Under the pieces are notes generated by a model. It did not search any database and was not told where the DNA came from. It worked only from the letters and a program-made list of their open reading frames with translations. Positions 16,088-34,264 of a DNA stretch of 34,264 nucleotides are shown piece by piece. A program made the translations under genes and the position numbers. Source of the stretch: Defluviitaleaceae bacterium (lineage in GTDB: Bacteria; Bacillota; Clostridia; Lachnospirales; WQUN01); the NCBI GenBank assembly GCA_009785605.1, contig WQVY01000025.1:1-34264 (forward strand). Reading direction: 5' to 3'. Each line of letters starts with the position of its first letter. Position 1 is the first letter of the stretch.

Positions 16088-17656
16088 ATGAAAAAGTTAA
16101 TTGCCTGTTGTTTGCTCATATTATTGGTTGCGGCGTGCGGGCGAGGGCCCGTGCCGGATAATGGCTATCCGGAGTATACACCTGCCCCACAATATGAAGA
16201 AGACGACTATACAAATCAAGAGCCGGCACATGTTGATGCCCCAGGCTTTGACCGTTTTGACCATTATGACATAAGCCTTACCATTGACCCGGCCACACGT
16301 ACCGTGACAAATGGCATGTCACGTATCAGGTTTACAAACCGCACAGGCGACGATTTAAGCGAGATCGTGCTGCGGGTTCCTTTGAATGTCTTTAACGAGA
16401 GTGCGCGGCACTCTTTTAATGAGTTTGAGGAAAGTGTTTTCCGCCATGGGCGGGATTATGGATATATGGATATCCAATATGTGACCGTAGACAACGAAGA
16501 TTTAAACTTCGAGCTCGACGGTACTGTTTTGCTATTGCACTTGGATATGCCACTGGCCCCGGAAGCAACTGTGCAGCTTGTGTTGCAGTACAGCGCATAC
16601 ATCCCCATGATAGCCCACCGCGTGGGTGCTAACCAGCAGGCTATGTGGTTTGGGATGCTACTGCCTATGCTGGCTGTATATGGCGATGATGGGTGGCTTA
16701 CCAATGAGTTGTACCCGGCCGGCGACCCATTTGTGCTAGAGATGGCCAATTTTATCGTGGAAATAACAACCCCGGCAGATTACATAGTTGCTGGTACTGG
16801 CATAAAAACCGGCGAGATACCAGTAGAAGATACCGATACCCGCGTTACAACATTTGTGGCCAATAATACCAGGGATTTTGCATTTGCCATATCCCCGCAC
16901 TTCCAGCAAGAATGGATAAGTACCGAAAGCGGGGATATCCACCTATATTATTTCACAGAAGACCTGCCGGTAGACACGATTTTGGAAATAGCCAGGCTAA
17001 GTATGGATTATTTCTCGTATAGGATACGACATTACCCGTTTGACCATATTCGTATCATAGAAACGGATATGTATAGGGATGTGATGACGTTTTCTAATGT
17101 GATATTTATTGATACATCAGCCCTTACAGAACCTAACCATGAAGCGCTGACCCGTGCGCTTGGCCACCAGTGGTTTTTTAATGTTGTGGGGAGTGACCCT
17201 GTGGCAGAGTCGTGGCTGGATAAGGGGCTAATACGGTATCTTACCGCGCGGCTTATTAATAACCGGCCGGCTTTGCTTTTGACTTATATGAATAATATAT
17301 ATGCGGGTGTTTCTGCCCGCGAAGATTTATATCTTTCCAACGGATTAGGGGCTTTCGAAAACTGGCAAGACTACTACAAGACCCATCATGTCAAGGGGAT
17401 GCTAATGTTTAACGCACTTAGCAACCACATGAGTGATGACATGTTTTGGGAGCTTATACGCCAGTATTTCCAGACGTTTTATTTCCGCATAGCAACCGGG
17501 GCAGATTTTATTAACTTGGCCGAAGAAATATACGGCAATAGCCTTGCAAGCTTTTTTGACGAGTGGTTTATAGGCGGGGCAGTGCCACTACTGCCAGACA
17601 GGCAAAGACTAGACACTCACGCGACAGAACATGTAGAGGATGAAGAACGCCAATGA
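16088..17656 (+). CDS. M1-peptidase-like lipoprotein, predicted catalytically inactive
   Basis: The 522-aa protein has a lipoprotein signal (MKKLIACCLLILLVAACG; lipobox VAAC). A Tyr/Glu/Pro-rich linker of about 40 residues follows, then a beta-domain with DHYDISLTIDPATRTV and a gluzincin-like domain as in M1 aminopeptidases. The motif expected as HExxH followed 18 residues later by Glu reads RALGHQWFFNVVG ... ESWLDKGL. The first His is Arg, the catalytic Glu is Ala and the third zinc ligand Glu is Lys; only the second His remains. It is therefore probably a non-enzymatic surface protein. It overlaps the carboxypeptidase gene by 4 nt (ATGA) and heads a six-gene operon. The fold assignment is fairly sure; the function is unknown. 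Confidence 0.85.
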   Translation: MKKLIACCLLILLVAACGRGPVPDNGYPEYTPAPQYEEDDYTNQEPAHVDAPGFDRFDHYDISLTIDPATRTVTNGMSRIRFTNRTGDDLSEIVLRVPLNVFNESARHSFNEFEESVFRHGRDYGYMDIQYVTVDNEDLNFELDGTVLLLHLDMPLAPEATVQLVLQYSAYIPMIAHRVGANQQAMWFGMLLPMLAVYGDDGWLTNELYPAGDPFVLEMANFIVEITTPADYIVAGTGIKTGEIPVEDTDTRVTTFVANNTRDFAFAISPHFQQEWISTESGDIHLYYFTEDLPVDTILEIARLSMDYFSYRIRHYPFDHIRIIETDMYRDVMTFSNVIFIDTSALTEPNHEALTRALGHQWFFNVVGSDPVAESWLDKGLIRYLTARLINNRPALLLTYMNNIYAGVSAREDLYLSNGLGAFENWQDYYKTHHVKGMLMFNALSNHMSDDMFWELIRQYFQTFYFRIATGADFINLAEEIYGNSLASFFDEWFIGGAVPLLPDRQRLDTHATEHVEDEERQ

Positions 17657-18648
17657 GAAAAAGATATCGTGAACCGGTTTTCTCCGGTGGTTTTACCGCA
17701 TTGTTGCTTGTGATTATACTTGTGGGATGCGGTGTTATTTTTTTTGTGTTAATGGGTGATGGTTTTAGAGATGGCATTGCATCTCTAAGGGCACCATATA
17801 ATTATGGCAGTGAAACGGGCAGTAATGAAGACTATGTACCCAACCAAGATACATTTGAAGGCAATGCAAGCATTGATGAAAATCAGGAGCAAGATAACAA
17901 TATGGGTGATACTTATATAAGCAATGACACAACAGTAGATGACGATATCTATGATAATGAAATTGCTTATAACGATTATGACAGCGCGGACACAACCCCC
18001 GGTACTGGACTAGCGACCAATAATACCGGTGATATTGTGTTGCTAACAGAAGTGGAAAATACTTTGCTGCCATGGTATTTGAAGCTGGTAAACCGGTACA
18101 ACTCCCTTGATTATTATTTTTATCCACAGCTTGCATATCTTGGTGTGGGTGGTGGGCATAGGTTTGATGCACGAGCTTATAGGGCGCTGCTTAATATGTT
18201 AGAGTCTGCCAGGGAATATGGGCTCAACCCTGTTGTTGTGTCTTCTTTTAGGTCTGTTTCGCGGCAGACGTACCTTTTTAACCGGCAAGTACAGCGTCAT
18301 ATAGACGCCGGATATAGCGCAGATGATGCCTTCGAAGCCGCAAGGCGTGTTGTTGCGTATCCTGGTACTAGCGAGCATAATCTTGGGCTTGCAGTGGATA
18401 TTGTCTCCAGCAGTTATACTAGCCTTACAGCTTACCAGGCATATACGCCTGAAGGGATATGGCTTGCGGCCAACAGTTATAGGTATGGTTTTGTACTGCG
18501 GTACCCGTATTATCAGCAGCATATAACAAATATTATTTTCGAGCCGTGGCATTTTAGGTATGTAGGGGTTGCGGCAGCTACAGAAATGTTTGAACGTGGG
18601 TTGGTACTGGAGGAGTATGTTAGCGAAAGGTTGGCTCAGTCCCAATGA
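17653..18648 (+). CDS. Membrane-anchored D-alanyl-D-alanine carboxypeptidase, M15B/VanY-like
   Basis: The 331-aa product starts with an N-terminal membrane segment (residues 12-35). An acidic, Asn/Asp/Tyr-rich linker follows (about 45-120), then an M15 zinc peptidase domain: VVVSSFRSVSRQTYLF, PGTSEHNLGLAVDIV (His and Asp ligands) and FEPWHFRYVG (Glu and His). This is the VanY/DacB pattern, which trims the terminal D-Ala of peptidoglycan pentapeptides outside the membrane. The start codon overlaps the preceding stop and its own stop overlaps the ABC ATPase start. No vanA/vanH-type ligase genes are nearby, so this is housekeeping wall remodelling rather than glycopeptide resistance. Confidence 0.93.
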   Translation: MRKRYREPVFSGGFTALLLVIILVGCGVIFFVLMGDGFRDGIASLRAPYNYGSETGSNEDYVPNQDTFEGNASIDENQEQDNNMGDTYISNDTTVDDDIYDNEIAYNDYDSADTTPGTGLATNNTGDIVLLTEVENTLLPWYLKLVNRYNSLDYYFYPQLAYLGVGGGHRFDARAYRALLNMLESAREYGLNPVVVSSFRSVSRQTYLFNRQVQRHIDAGYSADDAFEAARRVVAYPGTSEHNLGLAVDIVSSSYTSLTAYQAYTPEGIWLAANSYRYGFVLRYPYYQQHITNIIFEPWHFRYVGVAAATEMFERGLVLEEYVSERLAQSQ

Positions 18649-21958: not shown

Positions 21959-23722
21959 ATGAAAACGAGATATATCATGTTGTTGCTGATACTTACCGGT
22001 ACACTATTTAATACCGCTTGCAGCAACAAACCCACAGAAATATTGGAAGCACCACTGGCACACGGCGCTTTAGTTACATGTTTGACAGACACTGACTTGT
22101 CGGACACTGACAATGCAAGCACAAGCGAGCCAGATGACACTGATACATTGGCAGCTTTCCCCACCATACACATCACATCAGAGCTGGACCCGTTTGTCCA
22201 AGAACGGGAGCTGTGGCACGATGGCACAATCACACTAGGCGGTGCCGGTATATTCGACTTTGATGAGGTAGATGCCAGGATACGTGGGCGTGGTAACTCT
22301 ACATGGTGGAACGGCCAAGACAAAAGGCCTTTGCGCTTCCGATTCAGACAGGCCAGGCCCATGATATCGGATTACGATGCGCGAGATTGGATTTTGCTGG
22401 CCAACCAGTTTGATAGGTCGTTACTGCGCAACTACACGGTATTAAACCTGGGTGCTGCGTTAAGCGGATTGGGTTTTACACCCGTGCCACATCATGTACA
22501 CCTGTATGTCAACAGCGAATACATGGGTGTATATCTCCTAACAGACGAAAGAAACGTAGGCACTGGGCGGATGCAGCTACAATGGAACGAAGACCCGGCT
22601 ATAAGCGACTACTTCCTGGAGCTGGATGCCCGTGCACACCTTACCGGCATACTAGACGAAACATATATTGACGTAAACGGCCTACTATATGACCTGCGCT
22701 GGCCGGATGACTTGAGTCCGCAGCATGTAGACTATGTAAGGGATTACCTGGCCGCAGTAAGCCATGCCATACGCACTCAAAGTTTTGACGATATACTGGC
22801 ATTAATAGACTTAGACTCCTTCGTAGATTTTTATATTGTTCAGGAGTTTACTAAAGATGTAGACGCAAGGGATTTAAGTACATTCATGTATATAACAGGC
22901 ACCGGACATGAGCGTAGGCTTTTTATGGGCCCAATATGGGATTTTGACCTTGCGATGGGCAACTCTGCATACCAGCCGCTTGGGTATGGGCCAGAGGGGT
23001 TGTATGTGGCGGTATTCAACTACTGGTATAGGTACCTCATGAGTAGGCCAGAGTTTTTTAGCGCTGTACAAACCAGATGGAACGAAATACGTGACGTAGA
23101 AATCCCCCAAGCAATAGAGCATACCCTGGCCACAGCCATCCGCTACCAAAGCGAGTTTGAGCGTAACTTCGAGCGCCACCCGGCCGTCATGGGGCGGCAG
23201 CAGATGCCAACCCCCCGCGAGATATTAGAAATTGATTATTTCATGGGACATGTAAACCATTTAGTAAACTGGCTCGAAGCCCGCGCAGCCTGGATGGATG
23301 ACTTCTTTAACGACAGGCTACCGGATTTTGACCATATGTGGGCATTGGTAGAATACCAAGAAAGTACCACCCCAATTAGCATAGCCGTGAATGGTGAAAT
23401 ACACGAAACCAACATCTCACCCATAAGCATGCATAATAGGATCATGATTGCCCTAGAAGAACTAGAAGCTATATTTGGCATAGAAATAGAATATGATATA
23501 ACGCCAACGGGCAATATTGCCATGCAGCATGGCAATATTTCTATCACGCATCAAGCCGGGGACCTATATATTATGGTAAACGGCGAAAGAATAGATTTTA
23601 CAATGCCAACCGCGATACTAATAAGGGGCCATATTTTTGTACCACTGCGCGTGTTTGCGGAGGCTCTTGGGCATGACCTGGGCTGGGATGGCTCTACTCG
23701 TACTGTAAAAATAGAAATTTAA
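21959..23722 (+). CDS. CotH-family protein with C-terminal copper-amine-oxidase-N-like domain
   Basis: CotH proteins are secretory-type atypical kinases that phosphorylate spore-coat proteins in Bacillus. The 587-aa product has an export signal with a weak lipobox (NTAC). It then shows the CotH landmarks IRGRGNSTW, KRPLRFRF, DWILLANQFDRSLLRN, GVYLLTDERN, YFLELDARA (ExD) and GPIWDFDLAMGN (metal-binding DFD). After about residue 480 there is a separate domain with IAVNGE, IDFTMPTAILIRGHIFVPLRVFAEALGH and WDGSTRTVKIEI, the copper amine oxidase N-terminal (stalk-like) domain common on Firmicutes surface proteins. AAAAGGAGG lies about 6 nt before the ATG. It follows the exporter by 52 nt. Together with spoIIR it suggests a spore-surface or cell-surface phosphorylation role, by inference only. 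Confidence 0.9.
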   Translation: MKTRYIMLLLILTGTLFNTACSNKPTEILEAPLAHGALVTCLTDTDLSDTDNASTSEPDDTDTLAAFPTIHITSELDPFVQERELWHDGTITLGGAGIFDFDEVDARIRGRGNSTWWNGQDKRPLRFRFRQARPMISDYDARDWILLANQFDRSLLRNYTVLNLGAALSGLGFTPVPHHVHLYVNSEYMGVYLLTDERNVGTGRMQLQWNEDPAISDYFLELDARAHLTGILDETYIDVNGLLYDLRWPDDLSPQHVDYVRDYLAAVSHAIRTQSFDDILALIDLDSFVDFYIVQEFTKDVDARDLSTFMYITGTGHERRLFMGPIWDFDLAMGNSAYQPLGYGPEGLYVAVFNYWYRYLMSRPEFFSAVQTRWNEIRDVEIPQAIEHTLATAIRYQSEFERNFERHPAVMGRQQMPTPREILEIDYFMGHVNHLVNWLEARAAWMDDFFNDRLPDFDHMWALVEYQESTTPISIAVNGEIHETNISPISMHNRIMIALEELEAIFGIEIEYDITPTGNIAMQHGNISITHQAGDLYIMVNGERIDFTMPTAILIRGHIFVPLRVFAEALGHDLGWDGSTRTVKIEI

Positions 23723-24936: not shown

Positions 24937-27900
24937 ATGTATACAAATGTCCGCCGGGCTAAGTCGCGCTGGGCGCGTACTAAGTACATTAGAAATATTT
25001 TAATTGTCATGGTGTTTTTGGCTGTAATTACAGTGGCCGGCGTTTTTGGTAGTAATAATACAGCCACAGACGATCATGCATTTGATAAAGAGCTTGGCTT
25101 TGATACGGAGCTTTATTTTGGCATGACTATTTTAAGAGGGTGGCCAATAAGAAGTATATTGCCGCTTAACCCTGAACTTACGGGCTATAGTTTTTCCCAC
25201 TGGTCTAGCACTCCAGATGGGGGGGCGTTTGACTTTTCTACACCTATTTTAGACGAAATGACTTTCTATGCCGTGTGGGATGGGGGAAATAGCGCTGCAA
25301 GTTATGTTTCTTATGGCGTATATTATGGATATGACACCTACAACCATGTGGTTAATAATTTTGGTTTTGTTGCGTATAGCTACGATGCCGGATATTACTA
25401 CCCAGCATACAACCACTATGCGTATTATCATAGCGCCCCCACCTATGACTACTACAACGCGCATGACTATCCTGGGCACGGACCTGCATATGAACATTAT
25501 GCATATCACTATGATGCTCCTGTTAATGCTCATGACGCTGTATATTATTCTCCTGCATACGAACACGGCGCGTATTATAATGACGCTCCTACCTATGAAT
25601 ACTTTGCTGCAAACGATTATCCTACATATGAGCACTATGTAAATAACGACGATACTCATATCTATATCAATGAGAACGACAAGATTTTTGTAAGGTTTAA
25701 CTGGAACCATGCGAATCACATGGAGATACGTGCACAAGAAGCAGCCGAAGCGATAAGAATCTATGAGGAGCGAATACACTTAAACATTGCACCCGTCAAT
25801 GCTAATGCCTTTGCCGCAGCAGAGGAATATAGTTCACATGCACCATATGAAGAAGCGCAGATGCCAGAAATAGAAATGTTTGGCGGCTATATACCTATTA
25901 TGCCGCTTAATGCCACAGTAAGCGATATAGGTAATTTAAGGTCACAAATAGCCAGTAGAGGCGGTAACAATACCCCATGGACGATTTTTTTGAACTGGGG
26001 GACGGTGACTACTACAACAGAGGAAGCAATTTTGGTACCGAATGGTGCAAATGTCATATTGCAAAGTGTAGGCGCTGCAAGGCCTATTTGGCATCAACAC
26101 TATCCGGGCTCGCTGTCGCAGTTTGGTGATGAGGTACGGCATGAAAGGCATTTTAGAATACAGATGGGGGGGACATTGACTATCGGCAACATACAACTTA
26201 GCCGGGCAAGTCAGGATCCTTCTACTACTGGCGGCGGTATACGTGTGTATGGCGGCGGCCGCTTGTATGTTAGTCACAGTGGTGCTTTATTTCAAAATAA
26301 CCGCGCAATACAAGGCGGTGCAATTGAGGTCAGTGCCGGTGGCAGAGCAACAATAAGAGGCGGAACATTTACTGGCAACGTAGCTATCGGTTCCGGCCAG
26401 GCTAGCGGCGGTGCCATACGTGTGGCTGGTACCATTGGTGGAGATAACAATGGCTACTTAGCTTTTACTCGACAATACCCGACACATATTTACGATAACC
26501 ACCAAACAGCAAGTTCCGGCGGTGGTGTTACAGCCATCCTTAATGCGACACTAATTATAAGCGGAGACCAACCTTTATATATTACCGATAATACGGCCTT
26601 CACCAATGCCGGTGGGCTGATAGCAGCCGGTCACCTTCATATTTCCGGAAGCGGCCCAATTATCATAAGAGACAATATTGCAAACGACAACGCCGGTGGT
26701 ATGCAGTTTTCGGGCCCAGTCGGCCAGTTGGGTTTTGTGTATATTTCACCCCTAACGCCAATAGATATTTCAAGAAACACTGCCATAAACGGCAATGGCG
26801 GCGGCCTTACTGCTTCTAGAGGGGGTTCGGGCTTAGATGAAAATATCAATACCCTGCGGTTGAGTGCAAATGTTACTATTACAGGCAATATTGCTGGTAA
26901 TAGTGGAGGTGGGATATACCTATCTGTTGGAGACATTGAGTTAAACAACACTACTATTACAGGCAACACCGCAGGTATAAATGGCGGCGGTATAAGCATG
27001 ATTGGTGGGAACATTACGTCAAACGGTGCTACCATACATTCAAACAGGGCAAGTGTTGCCGTTGGCGCTCCCACGACAGCAAACACCGGCGGCGGTGGGG
27101 TTAGTGTTGAAGGTGCTAACAGCATCTTTACAATGAACTCAGGTACAATTGGTCACCCAGATACCACAGCCATTAACGCATTTAGCAACCGCGCCATAAG
27201 GGGTGCCGGGGTGCGTATTATAAACGGAACGTTTAATTTTAACGGAGGCAGTATTTTATATAACGTGACAACCAATGTCGAAGGCGGGACAGTGGCACTA
27301 ACAGACGGCCGTGGCGGTGGCGTGTTTGTTAGTAACACCGGCAACTTTAATATGAGCGGCGCAGCAGCTACCGAAAGGCTCATAAGAAACAACGCAGCAG
27401 ACCTTGGCGGTGGGGTTTATATACGCGCCGGTAACTTAAGAATAGAAAATGCAAATGCACATGTACAGGCTAACACGGTAACAGCTGCGGCTTCCGGTGC
27501 GGGTGTTCATCAGGTTGGCGGCACAGTAACAATGTCGGCCGGTAGTATCCGCAATCACAATGCCCAAGGCACAGCAGAGGGCTTGGGGCTCAGTTATGGC
27601 AGTGGTGTGGACATGCGCGGCGGCACGTTTAATATGTCTGGCGGGGCCATAACAAGCAACCGTACAGGAGTAGCAAACATGCCAGGCGGTGTAAATGTTG
27701 AAGCTACGGCTATATTTAATATGAGGGGAAACAGTACCATAGGCGGCTCGGCCGAACATATGTGGAACCAAGGCACAACAGGTGGCGGCGTGCGTGTGGC
27801 CACCGCAGGTGACCTTGTTATTCCTCCTATTTTAAACATCCCTGGCGGTGCCTTTAACATGGAAAATGACATTGGTGAAGGCGGTACCAGAACCATCAGC

Positions 27901-30555
27901 CATAACCGGGCAACTGTTTCTGGTGGCGGTGTACACGTTGCTACTACCGGCAGGTTTTTTATGCGGGGCACGGCAGGTACTTCCATTATTAGTCATAATG
28001 AAGCCGCCGGTGTAGGGGCAACTGATGGCGGCGGCGGGGTATATGTAAATGACAGCTCATCATTTGTAATGGAGACAGGTTCGATCTACAACAACCTGGC
28101 CACCCGTGGCGGAGGCGTTCGCGTACAAAGCGACGCAACCTTTAATATGTCAGGCACAGGCACAACAATCCGCAACAACCATGCAACCAATGGCGGCGGC
28201 GGGGTATATGTGGCCACCAATGCCACAACCGGCACTACCGGCTTCCATATGCAATCGGGCACTATTTATATAGAAGCCAACACAGTTGGCAATGACAGCG
28301 GCAACGGTATCCATCAAGCAAGCGGGCAAACAACTATGGCCGCAGGTACTATACGTAGGCACAACGCCACAGGCGGGCGCACTGCCCCTTATGGTACCGG
28401 CACACCCTTTGGCACAGATGGCGGAGCAAGAAACAACGGCAGTGCAGTGGCCATACGCGGCGGTATCTTTACGATGAGCGGCGGATACATGACCAGCAAC
28501 CGCACACAACTTGCCGGTGCGGCCGTTATAAACGGTGCGGCTGTTACCGCAATAGATACAGGCTCTACATTTATCATGACCGGCGGCACCATCGGCGGTG
28601 AAGGCAACCTTGGCAACGACGGTGTAAACGGTGCCGTACTTGGACGCGGCGATAGCATTATTGACATATCCGGTGGCTTGCTTACAGGCAATAGCTCCAC
28701 CCATGCCGGAGGTGCAATTCATATTAACAATAGTCTACTAACAATCTCTGGCACTACAATTATAGAAAATAACCGGGCTGACATCGGCGGCGGCGGTGTG
28801 TGGATACAATCCGGTGGTGCTTTCTACATGCACGGCGGCACGATACGCAATAACCGCTACGACCTTTCGGGCGGGCCTGTGGCCGCTGGCGGCGGCGTGT
28901 ATGTTGGGTGGTCTGGCTCGCCGTCTACTTTTACCATGACAGGCGGCACAATAGGCGCCCCCCGTGGTTGCGACGATAATTGTGAAGACCATGTTAATCC
29001 TTTAAACTGCGTGCCTGATTTGGGCAACCGCGCAGTAAGCGGCGGTGGGGTTTTTGTAAACAACGGGTCTAGCTTTTACATGCAAGACTACACCCCAAGT
29101 GGCGGCGGCGCAGCAATCCCCGGCACAGGCCTAATAATAGGCAATTCAACTACAACCGGCTCTGGTGGTGGCGTGATGGTCACAGGAGCGGACAGCTCGT
29201 TTGATATGTCTGCCGGGACAATAGAATATAATCTGGCACCCGGGCCAACTTCTGTTGGTGGAGGTGTTGCTGTTCTTACTGATGCAACTATGGATATGTC
29301 TGGCGGGACAATTGAGTACAACAGGGCCGTCCATGGCGGTGGTATCGGCACGTTCAGCAACTCGTATTTAACCATGTCCGGTGGCACCATCCGCGATAAC
29401 ACAGCCCTTCATGGTGGCGGTATTGAGGTAAACGGCGGCATGACTCTAACCATGTCCGGCGGTTACATTTACAATAACACAGCAACCGGCAACGGCGGCG
29501 GCGTATGGGTCATCACCGAGAATGCAAATAATTCTAGTTTCATCATGCACAGTGGCACAATAGGTGGCCCACGCGGCTGCCCAAGCAACTGCGCTGTCCA
29601 TGCTAATTCAGAAGACTGCGACCCTGACCAAGGCAACCGCGCCATAAACGGCGGTGGTGTCTGGGTTGGTAATGCTGCAAACTTCAACATCCATGGCGGC
29701 GGTGTAAAACGTATCACAGGCAATAATGCTAATTATGGCGGCGGTGTATATCTTGAATGGCAAAGCACTACAAGCAGAGGCCAAATGCGTATGCAAACAG
29801 GTTCATCTGGCCTACACATAACCAACAACACAGCCGCTTTTGACGGCGGTGGTATATTTACAGAAAACCGCCCCAACCCATATGTAAACCCCGTACCGCT
29901 GACATACTATCAAAACCTTACGTTGATAGGTGTTAACTTTAGCAACAATACAGCGTCGACATGGGAGACACCACCATCTAACGCGCTGGCCATTATCCCA
30001 TCAACGGCGTTTGCTACACCCGTAAGTATAAGTACCCACCCATTAAACAACTACGATATCAACTACGGCAACCCAGGTATCGTGTTTGAGTTTACAAAGA
30101 CAAATAACATACTCGCCCCTGAAACAGGTACACCGGTACAGGGTGCTGTGTTCCAGCTTTTTTCATGGGACACTGCAAGTGATTCATGGGTAGAGTCCGG
30201 TGCGCAGGTGACTAGTGGCGCGAATGGTTTGGTGACACTTAACCTCTCCGTAACTGGGCAATATCGTTTAGTTGAGGTTATTCCGCCCCCTGGGTTTATG
30301 CCGTTATTTGGTTACTGGCTGGCATCTATAAATAGTGTTACGCATGTGGTTACGTTTACACCTGTTAATGCGAATCCACCATTCGAATATTATGATGGTA
30401 ATTGGTATGTAGGTAATATGCCAGAGTTCCAACTGCCGCTTGCAGGAGGGGTGGGCCGCAACGGGTTCTTCTTCACGGGCTCTGTATGTATCATTGTAGG
30501 GCTTGGGGTTGTAATGTACCTATATGTAAAATCGAAAAAGAAACTGTACTCATAA
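24937..30555 (+). CDS. Giant exported surface protein: Tyr-rich repeats, Gly-rich beta-helix, SpaA-like domain, LPLAGG anchor
   Basis: The protein has 1872 aa. Residues 22-38 form an N-terminal membrane/export segment. Residues 48-118 resemble one List-Bact/InlB-type repeat (TELYFGMTI ... FYAVWDGG). Residues 119-248 are about one-quarter Tyr, with imperfect repeats of PAYEHYAYxxDAPTYEYY type. From about 410 to 1690 there are dozens of short beta-helix rungs (GGGVYV, ITGNTA, FNMSGG) like polymorphic-membrane-protein and adhesin repeats. Residues from about 1714 form a SpaA/Cna-B-like domain (GAVFQLFSWD ... YRLVEVIPPPGFMP). LPLAGG at 1833-1838, a membrane segment and KSKKKLYS end the protein, like a sortase substrate with Ala in place of Thr. 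AGAGGAG precedes the ATG. It is a likely adhesin or matrix protein; no enzyme domain is seen. Confidence 0.93.
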   Translation: MYTNVRRAKSRWARTKYIRNILIVMVFLAVITVAGVFGSNNTATDDHAFDKELGFDTELYFGMTILRGWPIRSILPLNPELTGYSFSHWSSTPDGGAFDFSTPILDEMTFYAVWDGGNSAASYVSYGVYYGYDTYNHVVNNFGFVAYSYDAGYYYPAYNHYAYYHSAPTYDYYNAHDYPGHGPAYEHYAYHYDAPVNAHDAVYYSPAYEHGAYYNDAPTYEYFAANDYPTYEHYVNNDDTHIYINENDKIFVRFNWNHANHMEIRAQEAAEAIRIYEERIHLNIAPVNANAFAAAEEYSSHAPYEEAQMPEIEMFGGYIPIMPLNATVSDIGNLRSQIASRGGNNTPWTIFLNWGTVTTTTEEAILVPNGANVILQSVGAARPIWHQHYPGSLSQFGDEVRHERHFRIQMGGTLTIGNIQLSRASQDPSTTGGGIRVYGGGRLYVSHSGALFQNNRAIQGGAIEVSAGGRATIRGGTFTGNVAIGSGQASGGAIRVAGTIGGDNNGYLAFTRQYPTHIYDNHQTASSGGGVTAILNATLIISGDQPLYITDNTAFTNAGGLIAAGHLHISGSGPIIIRDNIANDNAGGMQFSGPVGQLGFVYISPLTPIDISRNTAINGNGGGLTASRGGSGLDENINTLRLSANVTITGNIAGNSGGGIYLSVGDIELNNTTITGNTAGINGGGISMIGGNITSNGATIHSNRASVAVGAPTTANTGGGGVSVEGANSIFTMNSGTIGHPDTTAINAFSNRAIRGAGVRIINGTFNFNGGSILYNVTTNVEGGTVALTDGRGGGVFVSNTGNFNMSGAAATERLIRNNAADLGGGVYIRAGNLRIENANAHVQANTVTAAASGAGVHQVGGTVTMSAGSIRNHNAQGTAEGLGLSYGSGVDMRGGTFNMSGGAITSNRTGVANMPGGVNVEATAIFNMRGNSTIGGSAEHMWNQGTTGGGVRVATAGDLVIPPILNIPGGAFNMENDIGEGGTRTISHNRATVSGGGVHVATTGRFFMRGTAGTSIISHNEAAGVGATDGGGGVYVNDSSSFVMETGSIYNNLATRGGGVRVQSDATFNMSGTGTTIRNNHATNGGGGVYVATNATTGTTGFHMQSGTIYIEANTVGNDSGNGIHQASGQTTMAAGTIRRHNATGGRTAPYGTGTPFGTDGGARNNGSAVAIRGGIFTMSGGYMTSNRTQLAGAAVINGAAVTAIDTGSTFIMTGGTIGGEGNLGNDGVNGAVLGRGDSIIDISGGLLTGNSSTHAGGAIHINNSLLTISGTTIIENNRADIGGGGVWIQSGGAFYMHGGTIRNNRYDLSGGPVAAGGGVYVGWSGSPSTFTMTGGTIGAPRGCDDNCEDHVNPLNCVPDLGNRAVSGGGVFVNNGSSFYMQDYTPSGGGAAIPGTGLIIGNSTTTGSGGGVMVTGADSSFDMSAGTIEYNLAPGPTSVGGGVAVLTDATMDMSGGTIEYNRAVHGGGIGTFSNSYLTMSGGTIRDNTALHGGGIEVNGGMTLTMSGGYIYNNTATGNGGGVWVITENANNSSFIMHSGTIGGPRGCPSNCAVHANSEDCDPDQGNRAINGGGVWVGNAANFNIHGGGVKRITGNNANYGGGVYLEWQSTTSRGQMRMQTGSSGLHITNNTAAFDGGGIFTENRPNPYVNPVPLTYYQNLTLIGVNFSNNTASTWETPPSNALAIIPSTAFATPVSISTHPLNNYDINYGNPGIVFEFTKTNNILAPETGTPVQGAVFQLFSWDTASDSWVESGAQVTSGANGLVTLNLSVTGQYRLVEVIPPPGFMPLFGYWLASINSVTHVVTFTPVNANPPFEYYDGNWYVGNMPEFQLPLAGGVGRNGFFFTGSVCIIVGLGVVMYLYVKSKKKLYS

Positions 30556-30788
30556 GATGTAATTGGCTTTATAGGTTTATTTTAATACCGACATAACTTA
30601 AACAGTCCAGCCTGTCACCCGTTGCCCTGAAAGAGAAAAGCGTTGAAGCAGCTGCTATCTTCGGCTCAGGCTGGACTGGGTATACCATAAGATGGTGAAA
30701 GCCATAGCGATATCGCTTTTGGCCCAATCATCAAAACTGCCGACTTGTAGTCCCATATCAATTATGCTTCACTCAACTCTACCAATGA
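30556..30788. other. Intergenic region with structured element, no gene seen
   Basis: It lies between the giant gene stop and the tRNA terminator. It holds the 30603-30678 inverted-repeat element and a short palindrome (AGCGATATCGCT). I see no open frame with a ribosome site. Confidence 0.6.
30603..30678 (+). repeat. Structured element, copy 1
   Basis: A perfect 12-bp stem, CAGTCCAGCCTG (30603-30614) with CAGGCTGGACTG (30667-30678), encloses a loop. The loop contains AAAAGCGTTG (30636-30645) and GCTAT..TCGGCTC, sequences that recur in copy 2 at 31441. It could be a small RNA, a cis-acting RNA or a miniature mobile element. The strand is assigned from copy 2. Confidence 0.6.
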
Positions 30789-30826
30789 CAAACCCCCTGT
30801 AAACATAGTGTTTACAGGGGGTTTGT
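30788..30826. terminator. Terminator of the tRNA operon, 18-bp perfect stem
   Basis: ACAAACCCCCTGTAAACA (30788-30805), a TAG loop and TGTTTACAGGGGGTTTGT (30809-30826) form an uninterrupted hairpin directly downstream (minus strand) of tRNA-Gly. The classical long U-tract is weak, but the stem is very stable and may also insulate against reading from the left. Confidence 0.8.
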
Positions 30827-30829
30827 TTA

Positions 30830-30901
30830 AGCGCGAAACCAGATTCGAACTGGCGACCCTCGCCTTGGCAAGGCGATGCTCTACCACTGAGCCATTCGCG
30901 C
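30830..30901 (-). tRNA. tRNA-Gly (anticodon GCC)
   Basis: Cloverleaf: acceptor GCGCGAA/TTCGCGC, D-arm GCTC-AGTGGTA-GAGC, anticodon arm TCGCC-TTGCCAA-GGCGA, T-arm GCCAG-TTCGAAT-CTGGT. The discriminator is U and CCA is not encoded. It is the third and last tRNA of the operon. Confidence 0.95.
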
Positions 30902-30939
30902 GTATAAAATTGTCACAAGCCGCTAAAGCATCGTATGAT

Positions 30940-31010
30940 AGCGGGTGGCGGGAATCGAACCCGCGTATCAAGCTTGGAAGGCTTGTGTTCTACCATTGAA
31001 CTACACCCGC
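30940..31010 (-). tRNA. tRNA-Gly (anticodon TCC)
   Basis: Cloverleaf: acceptor GCGGGTG/CACCCGC, D-arm GTTC-AATGGTA-GAAC, anticodon arm CAAGC-CTTCCAA-GCTTG, T-arm GCGGG-TTCGATT-CCCGC. The discriminator is U and CCA is not encoded. It is the middle tRNA of the operon. Confidence 0.95.
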
Positions 31011-31034
31011 GCAATCCTATAAAGAAAGCGGCAA

Positions 31035-31107
31035 TGCCCAGGGGCGGAATTGAACCGTCGACACATGGATTTTCAGTCCATTGCTCTACCAACTGAGCTA
31101 CCTGGGC
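31035..31107 (-). tRNA. tRNA-Phe (anticodon GAA)
   Basis: Cloverleaf: acceptor GCCCAGG/CCTGGGC, D-arm GCTC-AGTTGGTA-GAGC, anticodon arm ATGGA-CTGAAAA-TCCAT, T-arm GACGG-TTCAATT-CCGCC with one A-C mismatch. The discriminator is A and CCA is not encoded. It is first in the operon, about 25 nt after the promoter. Confidence 0.95.
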
Positions 31108-31132
31108 ACAGAAAGCGGATGAGACGAACGCA

Positions 31133-31161
31133 ATTATAAACCAATGAATGGAATGCGTCAA
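31133..31161 (-). promoter_or_regulatory. Promoter of the tRNA-Phe/Gly/Gly operon
   Basis: On the minus strand TTGACG (31156-31161), an exact 17-nt spacer and TATAAT (31133-31138) lie just upstream of tRNA-Phe. This is nearly a consensus sigma-A promoter. Confidence 0.85.
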
Positions 31162-31364
31162 GCATTTACGCCACTTACATTAAATACCATGTGCTGTGGT
31201 TGCCATATAAGCTGGCAAACCCGTTGGATGTATTTCCCGGCACATCAAGATACAAGCTGCTGGCGCAACATATGTGATATGTGATAGCGTAAAATACTGC
31301 ATTTAGGCACGTGTCGAATGTGGTTGATGAAATGTTTCCGTTATACTACAAATATATGTACACG
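31162..31364. other. Intergenic stretch between tRNA promoter and surface-gene promoter
   Basis: About 200 nt of AT-rich sequence between two divergent promoters. I see no gene or conserved structure in it. Confidence 0.5.
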
Positions 31365-31392
31365 TTGACATTTATGAAAGATTCGTCATAAT
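31365..31392 (+). promoter_or_regulatory. Promoter of the second giant surface protein gene
   Basis: TTGACA (31365-31370, perfect), 16-nt spacer, CATAAT (31387-31392). It predicts a leader of nearly 200 nt before ATG 31596, which includes the structured element at 31441-31536. Confidence 0.7.
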
Positions 31393-31440
31393 TAGATACA
31401 GTTGTCTTGCACTAATGTTTTTTCCTATTCGACATATTAT

Positions 31441-31536
31441 ATAGCGAATTAATTTGAAACAGTCCAACTTGTTGCCTAAAAGCGTTGCGACGCTATTATC
31501 GGCTCTGGCGGACCTGTTTCTCGTTTAATTCGCTAT
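31441..31536 (+). promoter_or_regulatory. Structured leader element, copy 2
   Basis: A 12-bp outer stem ATAGCGAATTAA (31441-31452) / TTAATTCGCTAT (31525-31536) is followed by a short internal loop. The inner stem is GAAACAG-TCC (31456-31465) / GGA-C-CTGTTTC (31510-31520), and an inner hairpin GCGT-TGCG-ACGC sits within. AAAAGCGTTG (31478-31487), GCTAT and TCGGCTC are shared with copy 1 at 30603. It lies between promoter and start codon, so a cis-regulatory RNA is plausible. No known riboswitch consensus is recognised. Confidence 0.6.
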
Positions 31537-31595
31537 TATGCACATATAGCAATATTGGAAATACCTGCAAGCATGCAATGAGAGGATGAGCTGTT

Positions 31596-34264
31596 ATGAA
31601 AGTGCGGTTAACAAATTTAAAAGTAGTGCTTAATGATGGGATACGCATATTTGCTTTACTAATGGTTTTGGCGGCCACGGCAACATTTGCAGTTTTGGCG
31701 CTTGATAACATTAGCGAATATGAAGACTATAACAGTGCATTCTACGACTTCTATGTCCAAGGAAATGCCATACATATCGAAGAAGTTTACAGTTACGACA
31801 ATGATACGGTATCCCCATACACATATTATTACAGCTATGGTAGCAACGACGTGCCAGGGTACTCTTATGATGCAACGTATTACCATATGCCACATGGATA
31901 TGAATGGCACAGTTATGACTATTCCCCAGAAAACGATTTTGTTGACTATTGGCCAGATTATGGTGACCATCCTACATATGTAGATTATGACTATGATTAC
32001 ACACACACAGGCAACAACCAAAACGAGTACATGCAGGGCGATATTTATACAATGGGTAATACACCAGTATATGAAGAAATTATGCCGCTTGGTGCCGGGC
32101 GGACAGTTACGTTTAATGGTAACCCCATACCTATGCCGGCTGGGCACGAATCTTTTCAGACAGGCCCCAATGGGGACCTTGCAAGCCACCCTGCATTTGG
32201 TGGGATGCCGCTTCTTCCAATTTATATTGGGCGACAGTTTATGTGGTGGAGCCTTTACCCAAGCGGGCTTGACGCAAATGGCGACCCTTGTGTTGTTTCG
32301 TATTCGCAGACATTTGGCCCGCACACATATGTCCCACATGATATGACTGTGTATGCGGTGTGGGGTGACCCAATTGTTTTTGTTGGAAATACAACCACAC
32401 TCCCCATGAGTGGTGAATATTTTGATGTACAAGATAATCCCAATTATTTCGATAACCGTTTTGTCCCCCGTGGTTGGACGCTCAACCAAACTATAGCCTT
32501 TGGTGCACCTGTTGTACCCCCAAACAACCCGAGTCGGCAACACAATATATTTTGGGGTTGGTACAGTATACCTATCAGCAGTGATAACCTGGAATATCCG
32601 GCCCCTTTCCCTGCTGTTGCTGTAGATGGTGACACCGTCATAACCGGCAACACTAGAGCATATGCACGTTGGCGGCTTAACACTCACTTGGTAATGTTTG
32701 ATATGAACCACGACAATGCCGTTTTGGCTGTAGGCGAAGCCGCAAGGCCAAACCGCCTATACCGCTGGGCGCTTCATGGGAGAAGTATTGCTGACTCTGG
32801 CCTAGGTGGCGACGCTACTTTTGGCGAGGGGGGAATTGTAGGCATACCCATTTCGATGGACGGCTCACCTTGGAACTTCCCCATTTCTATCCCCAATGCC
32901 ATAGAACGGCAAAATAACTTGCGCCCATGGGTGCCCAACTATCCGTTTGGCCACCCAAATCACATTCCGCGTTCAAGTACGGATTTTAGAACACCATACC
33001 CAAGTGAGGAGTTTGTACGAGGGACTGCCGGTGGGCTTATTAACGCATACGCCGGTACAATGTGGCCACGTTCTGCACCGGCCGTAGAAATGGAATCGGG
33101 GACGCGTGGCCGGTGGACACCGCCATTTGGGGCAACAACCGGAAGCAATGCTTCCGAACGGAACAGATATACACTAGAAGGCTGGTGGACAACACCATAC
33201 GGCTGGAGAAATAACACGCCTGGCAACATCGTAAGCCAGCGTTTTGCCCCTGCCGGCCGCGCCAACACTCACATCTCCAACAACTATCACCCAGACGCAT
33301 TACATGCCGAACATGCAAGGCCAGCTGGTTTCCCCTTTGGCCTTGCAAGAACTGTGCCCGATTCACCATACGGTGCCGGACATCCGGAGCATATAAACAA
33401 TCCCCCAACAGGCATTGTTACTGAGGATATGACTGTATATGCAAACTGGGTATATAGGGTCACATTTCACTTAAATACTGCATCCAACCAGGGCCAATCA
33501 CATGGCGTTCAAGGGTTTTCTTTGGAAGGGACTACTGGTTTTAACCCAAACCTAAGCAACTTCACCAACTACCGTGATATCCTCCCGCACCTGCCAGATC
33601 CACAAAGGACCATTGGCCAAAGTGGGCAGCGTGTGCGTGCCACCCCAGGTGGGGGATTTTCCGCTCACGAGCCTGTTATTGCGGGATTCCCGCCAAATCC
33701 AACCCGGCCCGGCCATTTCTTTAACGGCTGGTGGGACAGGCCTATAAACCCAAGAAGGAACGACCACGCAGCTACTTGCCCACAATGCGATACAATGGAA
33801 GACTACCCTGTCAACCACCATAATGACGCGGTAAGGATCACCGCCGATATGCAAATAGACGGCAGTTTCACGGCATATGCCCACTGGACATTTCCTAGTG
33901 CGGATGACTATGTATATGTTATTTTCCATCTTAACCCTAGGTGCAATGTAACCGGTACTATTGGGGCTGTCGCAACCGAACCTGCCGATGAAGGCAAGCG
34001 CGGTTATGCATACTGGCCCACACACCGCCCATATTTTGCTTATCAAAACGATCATCAACGCTTCTTTTTGAGCCACCGGAGTATTGGAGTACCGGGTACG
34101 CTAAATCATGTGCCCGGGCCTGTAAACCTTCCAGGGACACACACAACTATATTGGAACGGAACCATAGATACACCACTACTCACCATAACTTAGAGTTTG
34201 CCAATGTTGCGTACGAAGACCGTTACGCCCCAAGCATAATACGGCAACGCACATGGAATACCCC
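31596..34264 (+). CDS. Giant exported surface protein: Tyr-rich region and List-Bact/InlB-type repeats (3' end outside window)
   Basis: ATG 31596 with GAGAGGATG upstream opens a frame that stays open for 889 codons to the right edge. Residues 15-37 are an export/membrane segment. Residues 40-160 are roughly a quarter Tyr with many Asp, His and Ser (e.g. SPYTYYYSYG, YVDYDYDYTHTG). The rest is a chain of List-Bact/InlB B-type units, each ending in the family pattern GW-x-n-Y-A-x-W: MTVYAVW, IFWGWYS ... AYARW, LEGWWTTPYG ... MTVYANW, FFNGWWDRPI ... FTAYAHW, and a further unit beginning YVYVIFHLNP. Such repeats occur in secreted, often sortase-anchored, proteins. The C-terminus is missing, so anchoring is unknown. 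It shares the anchor plus Tyr-rich layout with the 1872-aa protein. Confidence 0.88.
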   Translation, partial: MKVRLTNLKVVLNDGIRIFALLMVLAATATFAVLALDNISEYEDYNSAFYDFYVQGNAIHIEEVYSYDNDTVSPYTYYYSYGSNDVPGYSYDATYYHMPHGYEWHSYDYSPENDFVDYWPDYGDHPTYVDYDYDYTHTGNNQNEYMQGDIYTMGNTPVYEEIMPLGAGRTVTFNGNPIPMPAGHESFQTGPNGDLASHPAFGGMPLLPIYIGRQFMWWSLYPSGLDANGDPCVVSYSQTFGPHTYVPHDMTVYAVWGDPIVFVGNTTTLPMSGEYFDVQDNPNYFDNRFVPRGWTLNQTIAFGAPVVPPNNPSRQHNIFWGWYSIPISSDNLEYPAPFPAVAVDGDTVITGNTRAYARWRLNTHLVMFDMNHDNAVLAVGEAARPNRLYRWALHGRSIADSGLGGDATFGEGGIVGIPISMDGSPWNFPISIPNAIERQNNLRPWVPNYPFGHPNHIPRSSTDFRTPYPSEEFVRGTAGGLINAYAGTMWPRSAPAVEMESGTRGRWTPPFGATTGSNASERNRYTLEGWWTTPYGWRNNTPGNIVSQRFAPAGRANTHISNNYHPDALHAEHARPAGFPFGLARTVPDSPYGAGHPEHINNPPTGIVTEDMTVYANWVYRVTFHLNTASNQGQSHGVQGFSLEGTTGFNPNLSNFTNYRDILPHLPDPQRTIGQSGQRVRATPGGGFSAHEPVIAGFPPNPTRPGHFFNGWWDRPINPRRNDHAATCPQCDTMEDYPVNHHNDAVRITADMQIDGSFTAYAHWTFPSADDYVYVIFHLNPRCNVTGTIGAVATEPADEGKRGYAYWPTHRPYFAYQNDHQRFFLSHRSIGVPGTLNHVPGPVNLPGTHTTILERNHRYTTTHHNLEFANVAYEDRYAPSIIRQRTWNT

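Follow-up and report, generated by a model that had tools for sequence, protein, structure and literature searches.

Two neighboring giant genes, here called A and B, encode what appear to be genus-specific, sortase-anchored, fibrillar-adhesin-like proteins with a disordered, tyrosine-rich tip that would stick to substrates or to itself, an interpretation to which we give about an even chance of being right. Both genes lie on contig C25, which was analyzed as a single stretch of 34,264 bases (the window). The contig belongs to genome G000 of an uncultured, probably gut-dwelling bacterium (134 contigs, 2.62 Mb, 90% complete), which was compared with two congeners, G001 and G002, the three genomes representing three species of one genus. 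An initial annotation of the window had described the two products as giant surface proteins with a common N-terminal layout, made up of an export segment, a region rich in Tyr and List-Bact-type material. This observation is largely real, with the corrections given below.

Architecture and cell-wall anchoring of A and B

Translation of the window indicates that both open reading frames are real: A spans 24937-30555 (1872 aa), and B runs from 31596 up to the end of the contig. The features within and between them are as follows.

24937..25047, + strand: A signal peptide region, aa 1-37 (...VAGVFG), from translation, hydrophobic core and paralog alignment
25159..25275, + strand: A half List-Bact (PF09479) unit ahead of the Tyr-rich block, 22.5 bits, under the curated cut-off of 27
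25303..25638, + strand: A Tyr-rich block, aa 123-234, with 33 Tyr in 112 residues (29%) and neither Lys nor Arg
25969..30036, + strand: A beta-helix-type body with GGG and MSGG..I..N.A repeats, the probable stalk, from sequence
30085..30432, + strand: A SpaA (PF17802) domain, 25.3 bits in Pfam at a cut-off of 23.1, with candidate triad K1721-E1780-N1827
30433..30555, + strand: A cell-wall sorting signal LPLAGG, TM helix and KSKKK tail, from sequence
30830..31108, - strand: tRNA-Gly(gcc), tRNA-Gly(tcc) and tRNA-Phe(gaa), between A and B and outside the system
31596..31706, + strand: B signal peptide region, aa 1-37 (...ATFAVLA), from translation and paralog alignment
31719..32072, + strand: B Tyr-rich block, aa 42-159, with 27 Tyr in 118 residues (23%) and neither Lys nor Arg
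32079..34264, + strand: B List-Bact-type repeat chain, broken off at the contig end, 18.4 bits, under the cut-off

The first 101 bases of contig C87 are exactly the final 101 bases of the window, and the C87 frame extends B to 2036 aa, adding two SpaA domains followed by a sorting signal. Giant repeat genes cross contig ends in the window (34164-34264) and in C13, C52, C69, C75, C87, C89 and C103, and such proteins are therefore probably undercounted in MAGs. A and B are neighbors, as the description of two adjacent surface proteins had it, but the 1.04 kb gap between them holds three tRNA genes on the opposite strand, which rules out a common operon. A 16-base sequence, AAACAGTCCAGCCTGT, occurs in copies that are 88% alike at 30600-30615 after A and at 31457-31472 ahead of B. 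At other loci, XRE-like regulators of about 430 aa (L066, L069 and L070) adjoin giant genes, and at others (L067 and L072) an upstream pair of genes for about 150 aa and 136 aa resembles by eye LytTR and DUF3021 genes, several giant genes in all having such neighbors. These regulator neighbors suggest that expression of the giant genes is switched.

Each product starts, as originally noted, with an export segment, a hydrophobic stretch behind a basic n-region that is conserved among paralogs and ends in VFG in A and in VLA in B. Its designation as an anchor needs revision: the most plausible reading of the segment is a signal peptide, and the anchor is C-terminal, with an LPxTG-like motif, TM helix and basic tail present in A (LPLAGG-TM-KSKKK), in the joined B (LPLTGG-TM-RKHK) and in the paralogs. 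This sorting signal rules out an N-terminal membrane anchor as the main one. Its Pfam family PF00746 passes E 0.01 in only one of 18 members. Since the anchor is C-terminal, the Tyr-rich block comes to lie at the free end of the protein, where we infer from the order of the elements that it forms an exposed outer tip.

The block itself was correctly recognized in both proteins. In the richest 100-residue stretch, A has 30 Tyr and B has 24; given that Tyr makes up 4.6% of residues overall, the binomial p-values are ~1e-16 and ~2e-11, respectively. List-Bact material follows the block in B as had been claimed, whereas in A a half unit precedes the block and the beta-helix-type body comes after it. 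The downstream modules differ between the two proteins in the way first described, with GGG/MSGG repeats of beta-helix type in A and a List-Bact-type chain in B. For the body of A, the beta-helix reading draws on paralogs that match PF13229 and PF02415 (one member each), while the strand pattern appears only in a low-confidence AlphaFold2 model, the single-sequence prediction of A residues 1-1195 having a pLDDT of 34, which is too poor. Residues 33-241 of A form neither strands nor helices in the low-confidence model, which is weak evidence.

The isopeptide triad of SpaA domains consists of Lys, Glu and Asn or Asp (PMC12617251). By motif and position, candidate Lys-Glu-Asn triads are found in the A domain and in both B domains (K1668-E1753-N1822 and K1831-E1928-N1986), and an isopeptide bond is probably formed within them. 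The SpaA domain of A has a weak sequence match to PDB 2ww8. AlphaFold2 modeling of the domain from three sequences gave a pLDDT of 50, again too poor, and a Foldseek search with this model returned nothing at E < 0.001 and weak adhesin-like matches only.

Sortase matches number nine in G000, eight in G001 and nine in G002, and one to three in each of four genomes from other genera of the family. The nearest NCBIfam class for the G000 sortases is class C in six cases and class B in two, some of them under the cut-off. All three species also have class C-type sortase relatives without the catalytic Cys, with TLLTP, TLVTT or TLLAY at this site (L031, 1325-2041, minus strand; L032, 6990-7769, minus strand; L111, L112, L131 and L132). 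The Cys of TLxTC is missing from the class C-type copies that adjoin LPLTGG genes on C21 and C89, and the C21 copy lacks the catalytic His too. The Cys-less copies are possible conserved pseudosortases.

Distribution and drift of the tyrosine-rich block

The initial annotation had suggested a search of related genomes for the same N-terminal layout, and such proteins were found, which removes the objection that A and B might have no counterparts. The shared, rare module has at least 27 members with 13 or more Tyr per 100 residues in the three species of the genus (eight in G000, seven in G001 and 12 in G002), a lower bound obtained from chosen stretches of these genomes. Besides A and B, the G000 members include proteins on C32 (1906 aa, LPLSGG) and C16 (~2020 aa, LPLTGG), two in tandem on C21 (2298 and ~2580 aa, LPLTGG) and one on C103 that is cut at the contig end. 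The LPxTGG genes of G000 were sought by motif as well as by List-Bact matches, and a block is present in each of the six whose N-terminus is intact (A, B joined to C87, C32, C16 and the two on C21). Across the loci read, the block is present in 18 of 18 intact LPxTGG proteins, while among 42 other exported proteins, seven have 12 or more Tyr in 100 residues (Fisher p = 5e-10, which is optimistic because many loci were picked for a Tyr hit). The idea that a shared module implies common handling is thus borne out to the extent that the sortase signal goes with the block.

Members vary widely in other respects. Among those read out from profile matches, lengths reach 4648 aa. One related protein of 3920 aa (L074) has the block together with a different membrane-type tail, an LPxTGG signal being undetected in it, and so counts against a strict tie between block and sortase anchor. 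In another (L155; G002 contig C40, 1827-13943; 4039 aa), the tip consists of ~13 copies of N-Y-Y-Y-x-R and reaches 46 Tyr per 100 residues. On contig C2 of G000, a 147-aa secreted protein without an anchor (L027, 7196-7639, minus strand) has 26 Tyr per 100 residues, and a hairpin-like sequence follows its stop codon; it is possibly a soluble partner of the tips.

Three profiles were used for searches at greater distance: A3 covers the signal peptide and Tyr block, A6 was built from 14 rows, and A8 represents the A-type order of signal peptide, half List-Bact unit and Tyr block. A3 gave six reported matches in G001 and eight in G002. It matched nothing in 34 further genomes from the family, and among 24 genomes at the level of the order it hit a single pilin-like protein. 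A8 added eight further strong matches in G001 and G002. With A6, a sample of 398 genomes of the phylum yielded only G000 at E 1e-4, and a sample of 391 genomes of the class yielded G000 and four others at E 1e-3. Frames read at three of these four (G100, G132 and G344) had no Tyr block, and at the fourth (G194, L099) a long frame was not seen on the matched strand. A profile match in G048 was rejected as a Tyr-tip protein. A contig search with B led to one named congener, G002 contig C45 (WQVF01000045.1), and viral contigs searched with B contained no relative. The block models respond to composition and to the signal peptide, and so are no proof that the blocks share an ancestor; the family looks both genus-wide and genus-specific by these searches.

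On average, the blocks contain 23.8% Tyr, 10.9% Asp, 8.5% Glu (Asp and Glu together 19.4%), 5.4% His and 1.1% Lys plus Arg, with Tyr grouped in clusters of two to three. Block length varies from roughly 20 to more than 200 aa, with indels and repeats. FoldIndex was negative for all 16 blocks tested, and the block is probably disordered or floppy. Between B and its ortholog on G002 contig C45, the bodies are 85-93% identical while the block is 47% identical with large indels, yet its Tyr content is still 23-25%. Pooled over three diverged pairs, Tyr positions were kept in 44 of 68 cases versus 85 of 197 for other positions (p = 0.003); single pairs are not significant, and for B and its ortholog a one-sided p of 0.002 becomes 0.16 in a symmetric count. 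Low-complexity blocks can grow by repeat slippage, so part of this retention may be mutational. The L155 tip of Tyr and Arg repeats identifies Tyr, not acid, as the constant.

Possible roles of the tip in an alkaline gut

In the model that we favor, the proteins would be exported and lose their signal peptide, and a sortase would link the C-terminal LPxTGG signal to the wall. The SpaA domains would adjoin the wall, probably locked by the Lys-Glu-Asn isopeptide bond, and a stalk of beta-helix or List-Bact repeats would reach outward, its free N-terminus bearing the flexible, Tyr-rich, mostly acidic and almost Lys-free block. In an alkaline gut, this tip would act through many weak Tyr contacts with particles, polysaccharide, lignin or humic aromatics, or with other tips. 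Such contacts seem most likely because the sequence drifts while ~24% Tyr stays, and in one case has become (NYYYxR)n. Disordered regions rich in Tyr are well known from animal materials and eukaryotic condensates, where they provide stickiness or sites for cross-linking. Fibrillar adhesins of Firmicutes usually have their adhesive parts at the N-terminus, opposite a C-terminal sortase anchor (PMC8286594). A known adhesive Pfam domain was found in none of the 18 members scanned, and for this reason A and B are filed as fibrillar-adhesin-like only. A more far-reaching version, tentative and on balance doubtful, is that dozens of giant wall proteins with interchangeable stalks make up a matrix in which the tips condense with one another, with the small secreted Tyr-rich partner or with humic aromatics, tuned by phenolate formation. 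Should the tips prove to bind or to condense, they would explain bacterial attachment in a habitat that is among the most alkaline in biology, and would be a source of sticky sequences that are genetically simple.

The habitat is best documented for G002, whose contig C45 belongs to the Defluviitaleaceae MAG Emb289P1bin126. Emb289 denotes Embiratermes neotenicus, a termite that feeds on humus. In the study concerned, 79% of Defluviitaleaceae MAGs were from the P1 gut compartment, which it calls highly alkaline (PMC7024585); for soil feeders, P1 has been described as both highly alkaline and anaerobic (PMC10018900). The habitat of G000 would be similar.

Lysine is scarce in these proteins. The mature parts of the 19 first-compiled members contain 76 Lys in total (~0.2%), compared with 4.9% Arg in the bodies, and about 20 of the 76 lie at the first strand of SpaA by our own reading (15 by a strict pattern), the position of the triad Lys. 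A and B have three and five Lys in their mature parts, none of them in a pilin motif recognizable by eye. In the window, Lys content is mostly ~4-8% for cytosolic proteins and 0.6-1.1% for exported ones (for example 16088-18648 and 21959-23722); exported proteins of all three genomes and of sister genera mostly have 0-1% Lys at ~3-7% Arg. Large Lys-poor surface proteins also occur in sister genera (G003, G009, G012, G013, G015, G016, G028 and G034), where the Tyr block is absent apart from one weaker exception (G028 L087, 16 Tyr per 100 residues), and normal Lys was seen in G005, G008, G011, G017 and G018. Depletion of Lys is thus a trait separate from the Tyr block. It could be used to learn how proteins adapt to high pH, and, with the remaining Lys enriched at SpaA isopeptide sites, it offers a clean means of picking out functional lysines.

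The main rival explanation, which we judge unlikely, is an alkaline surface layer, in which the tips form a polyanionic brush that gains charge near pH 10-11 and buffers or repels hydroxide. Asp and Glu are charged at all pH values, Tyr turns into phenolate near pH 10-11, and teichuronopeptide and SlpA are thought to buffer or repel hydroxide in alkaliphilic Bacillus. The origin of a congener in a gut compartment called highly alkaline fits this explanation, as do the nearly Lys-free exported proteins of the genus, with Arg at 3-7%, and the calculated charge of the blocks, which goes from -9 to -33 at pH 7 to -23 to -75 at pH 11. Alkaliphily has been linked to acidic surface proteins low in Lys and Arg, and to acidic wall polymers (PMC5938343). 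However, sister genera that are equally Lys-depleted manage without the block, one weaker exception aside, which indicates that alkaline life does not need it; plain Asp and Glu would make a simpler polyanion, and the L155 tip is built of Arg and Tyr instead of acid. Together, the block-less genera and the L155 repeats disfavor a surface layer as the sole role. That the block is a passive spacer, a flexible N-terminal extension left by compositional drift and slippage, is quite unlikely: its variable length, indels and repeats would be expected, and moderately Tyr-rich stretches do occur elsewhere among the exported proteins of the genus, but ~24% Tyr is kept over three species and many paralogs, the association with LPxTGG is strong, and Tyr is retained above other residues in diverged pairs.

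Two further explanations involve chemistry on the Tyr side chains. Tyr-linked glycans are known from the S-layers of some Bacillota, and the dense Tyr-Asp clusters and the drift with kept Tyr would agree with O-glycans or other groups on the block, as in an S-layer glycoprotein. We consider this improbable, as a glycosylation gene was not recognized beside the genes read and a fixed motif around Tyr is absent. Oxidative cross-linking, raised in the initial annotation and here taken as dityrosine bonds that join neighboring tips into one matrix, would make use of the Tyr clusters where there is almost no Lys for other cross-links, and the anchorless C2 protein could be a partner. Neither Cu-oxidase (PF07731) nor DyP peroxidase (PF04261) was detected in the three congeneric genomes, with positive controls; for tyrosinase (PF00264), both the search of these genomes and its control came back empty. 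The niche of the relative, P1, is described as anaerobic (PMC10018900). Since these two enzymes were not found and P1 is described as anaerobic, cross-linking of this kind is disfavored and judged improbable, and we retain a sticky tip acting through weak contacts as the preferred reading.

Comparison with known systems

CshA is a fibrillar adhesin whose disordered N-terminal tip catches fibronectin. Fibrillar adhesins and fibrillar-adhesin-like proteins resemble A and B in length, signal peptide, repeat stalk, SpaA (listed among their stalk domains), C-terminal sortase anchor and variable N-terminal tip (PMC8286594). In contrast to them, the tip here is of Tyr-rich low complexity, the stalk is mostly beta-helix or List-Bact, and Lys is nearly lacking. 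Internalins and other List-Bact/InlB_B (PF09479) proteins have the repeats seen in B-like members (five of 18 scanned), but LRRs were not found, A contains just a single half unit, and internalins are not known to have a Tyr block; membership among the internalins was rejected, with no LRR family in the Pfam scans. SpaA/CnaB pilus and adhesin proteins (PDB 2ww8) likewise have a Lys-Glu-Asn SpaA domain ahead of the sorting signal, and class C-type sortases are present in the genome, yet the pilin-type Lys motif was not recognized. Pilus-type polymerization via body Lys looks unlikely because Lys is almost absent outside SpaA.

Among alkaliphile surface polymers, SlpA of Bacillus pseudofirmus is also an acidic, Lys-poor surface protein (PMC5938343), differing in anchoring and domains, whereas the present proteins keep Arg and add the Tyr-rich tip. 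Tyr-rich cross-linked proteins such as those of the Eimeria oocyst wall and resilin-like materials share the density of Tyr, but the proteins described here are bacterial and wall-anchored, with no laccase or DyP peroxidase found and a probably anaerobic setting. Our literature search did not turn up a large family of bacterial wall proteins in which a Tyr-rich disordered region forms the usual tip. The parts are known individually (SpaA, List-Bact, LPxTG and beta-helix), and what looks new is a Tyr-rich tip carried genus-wide on different stalks.
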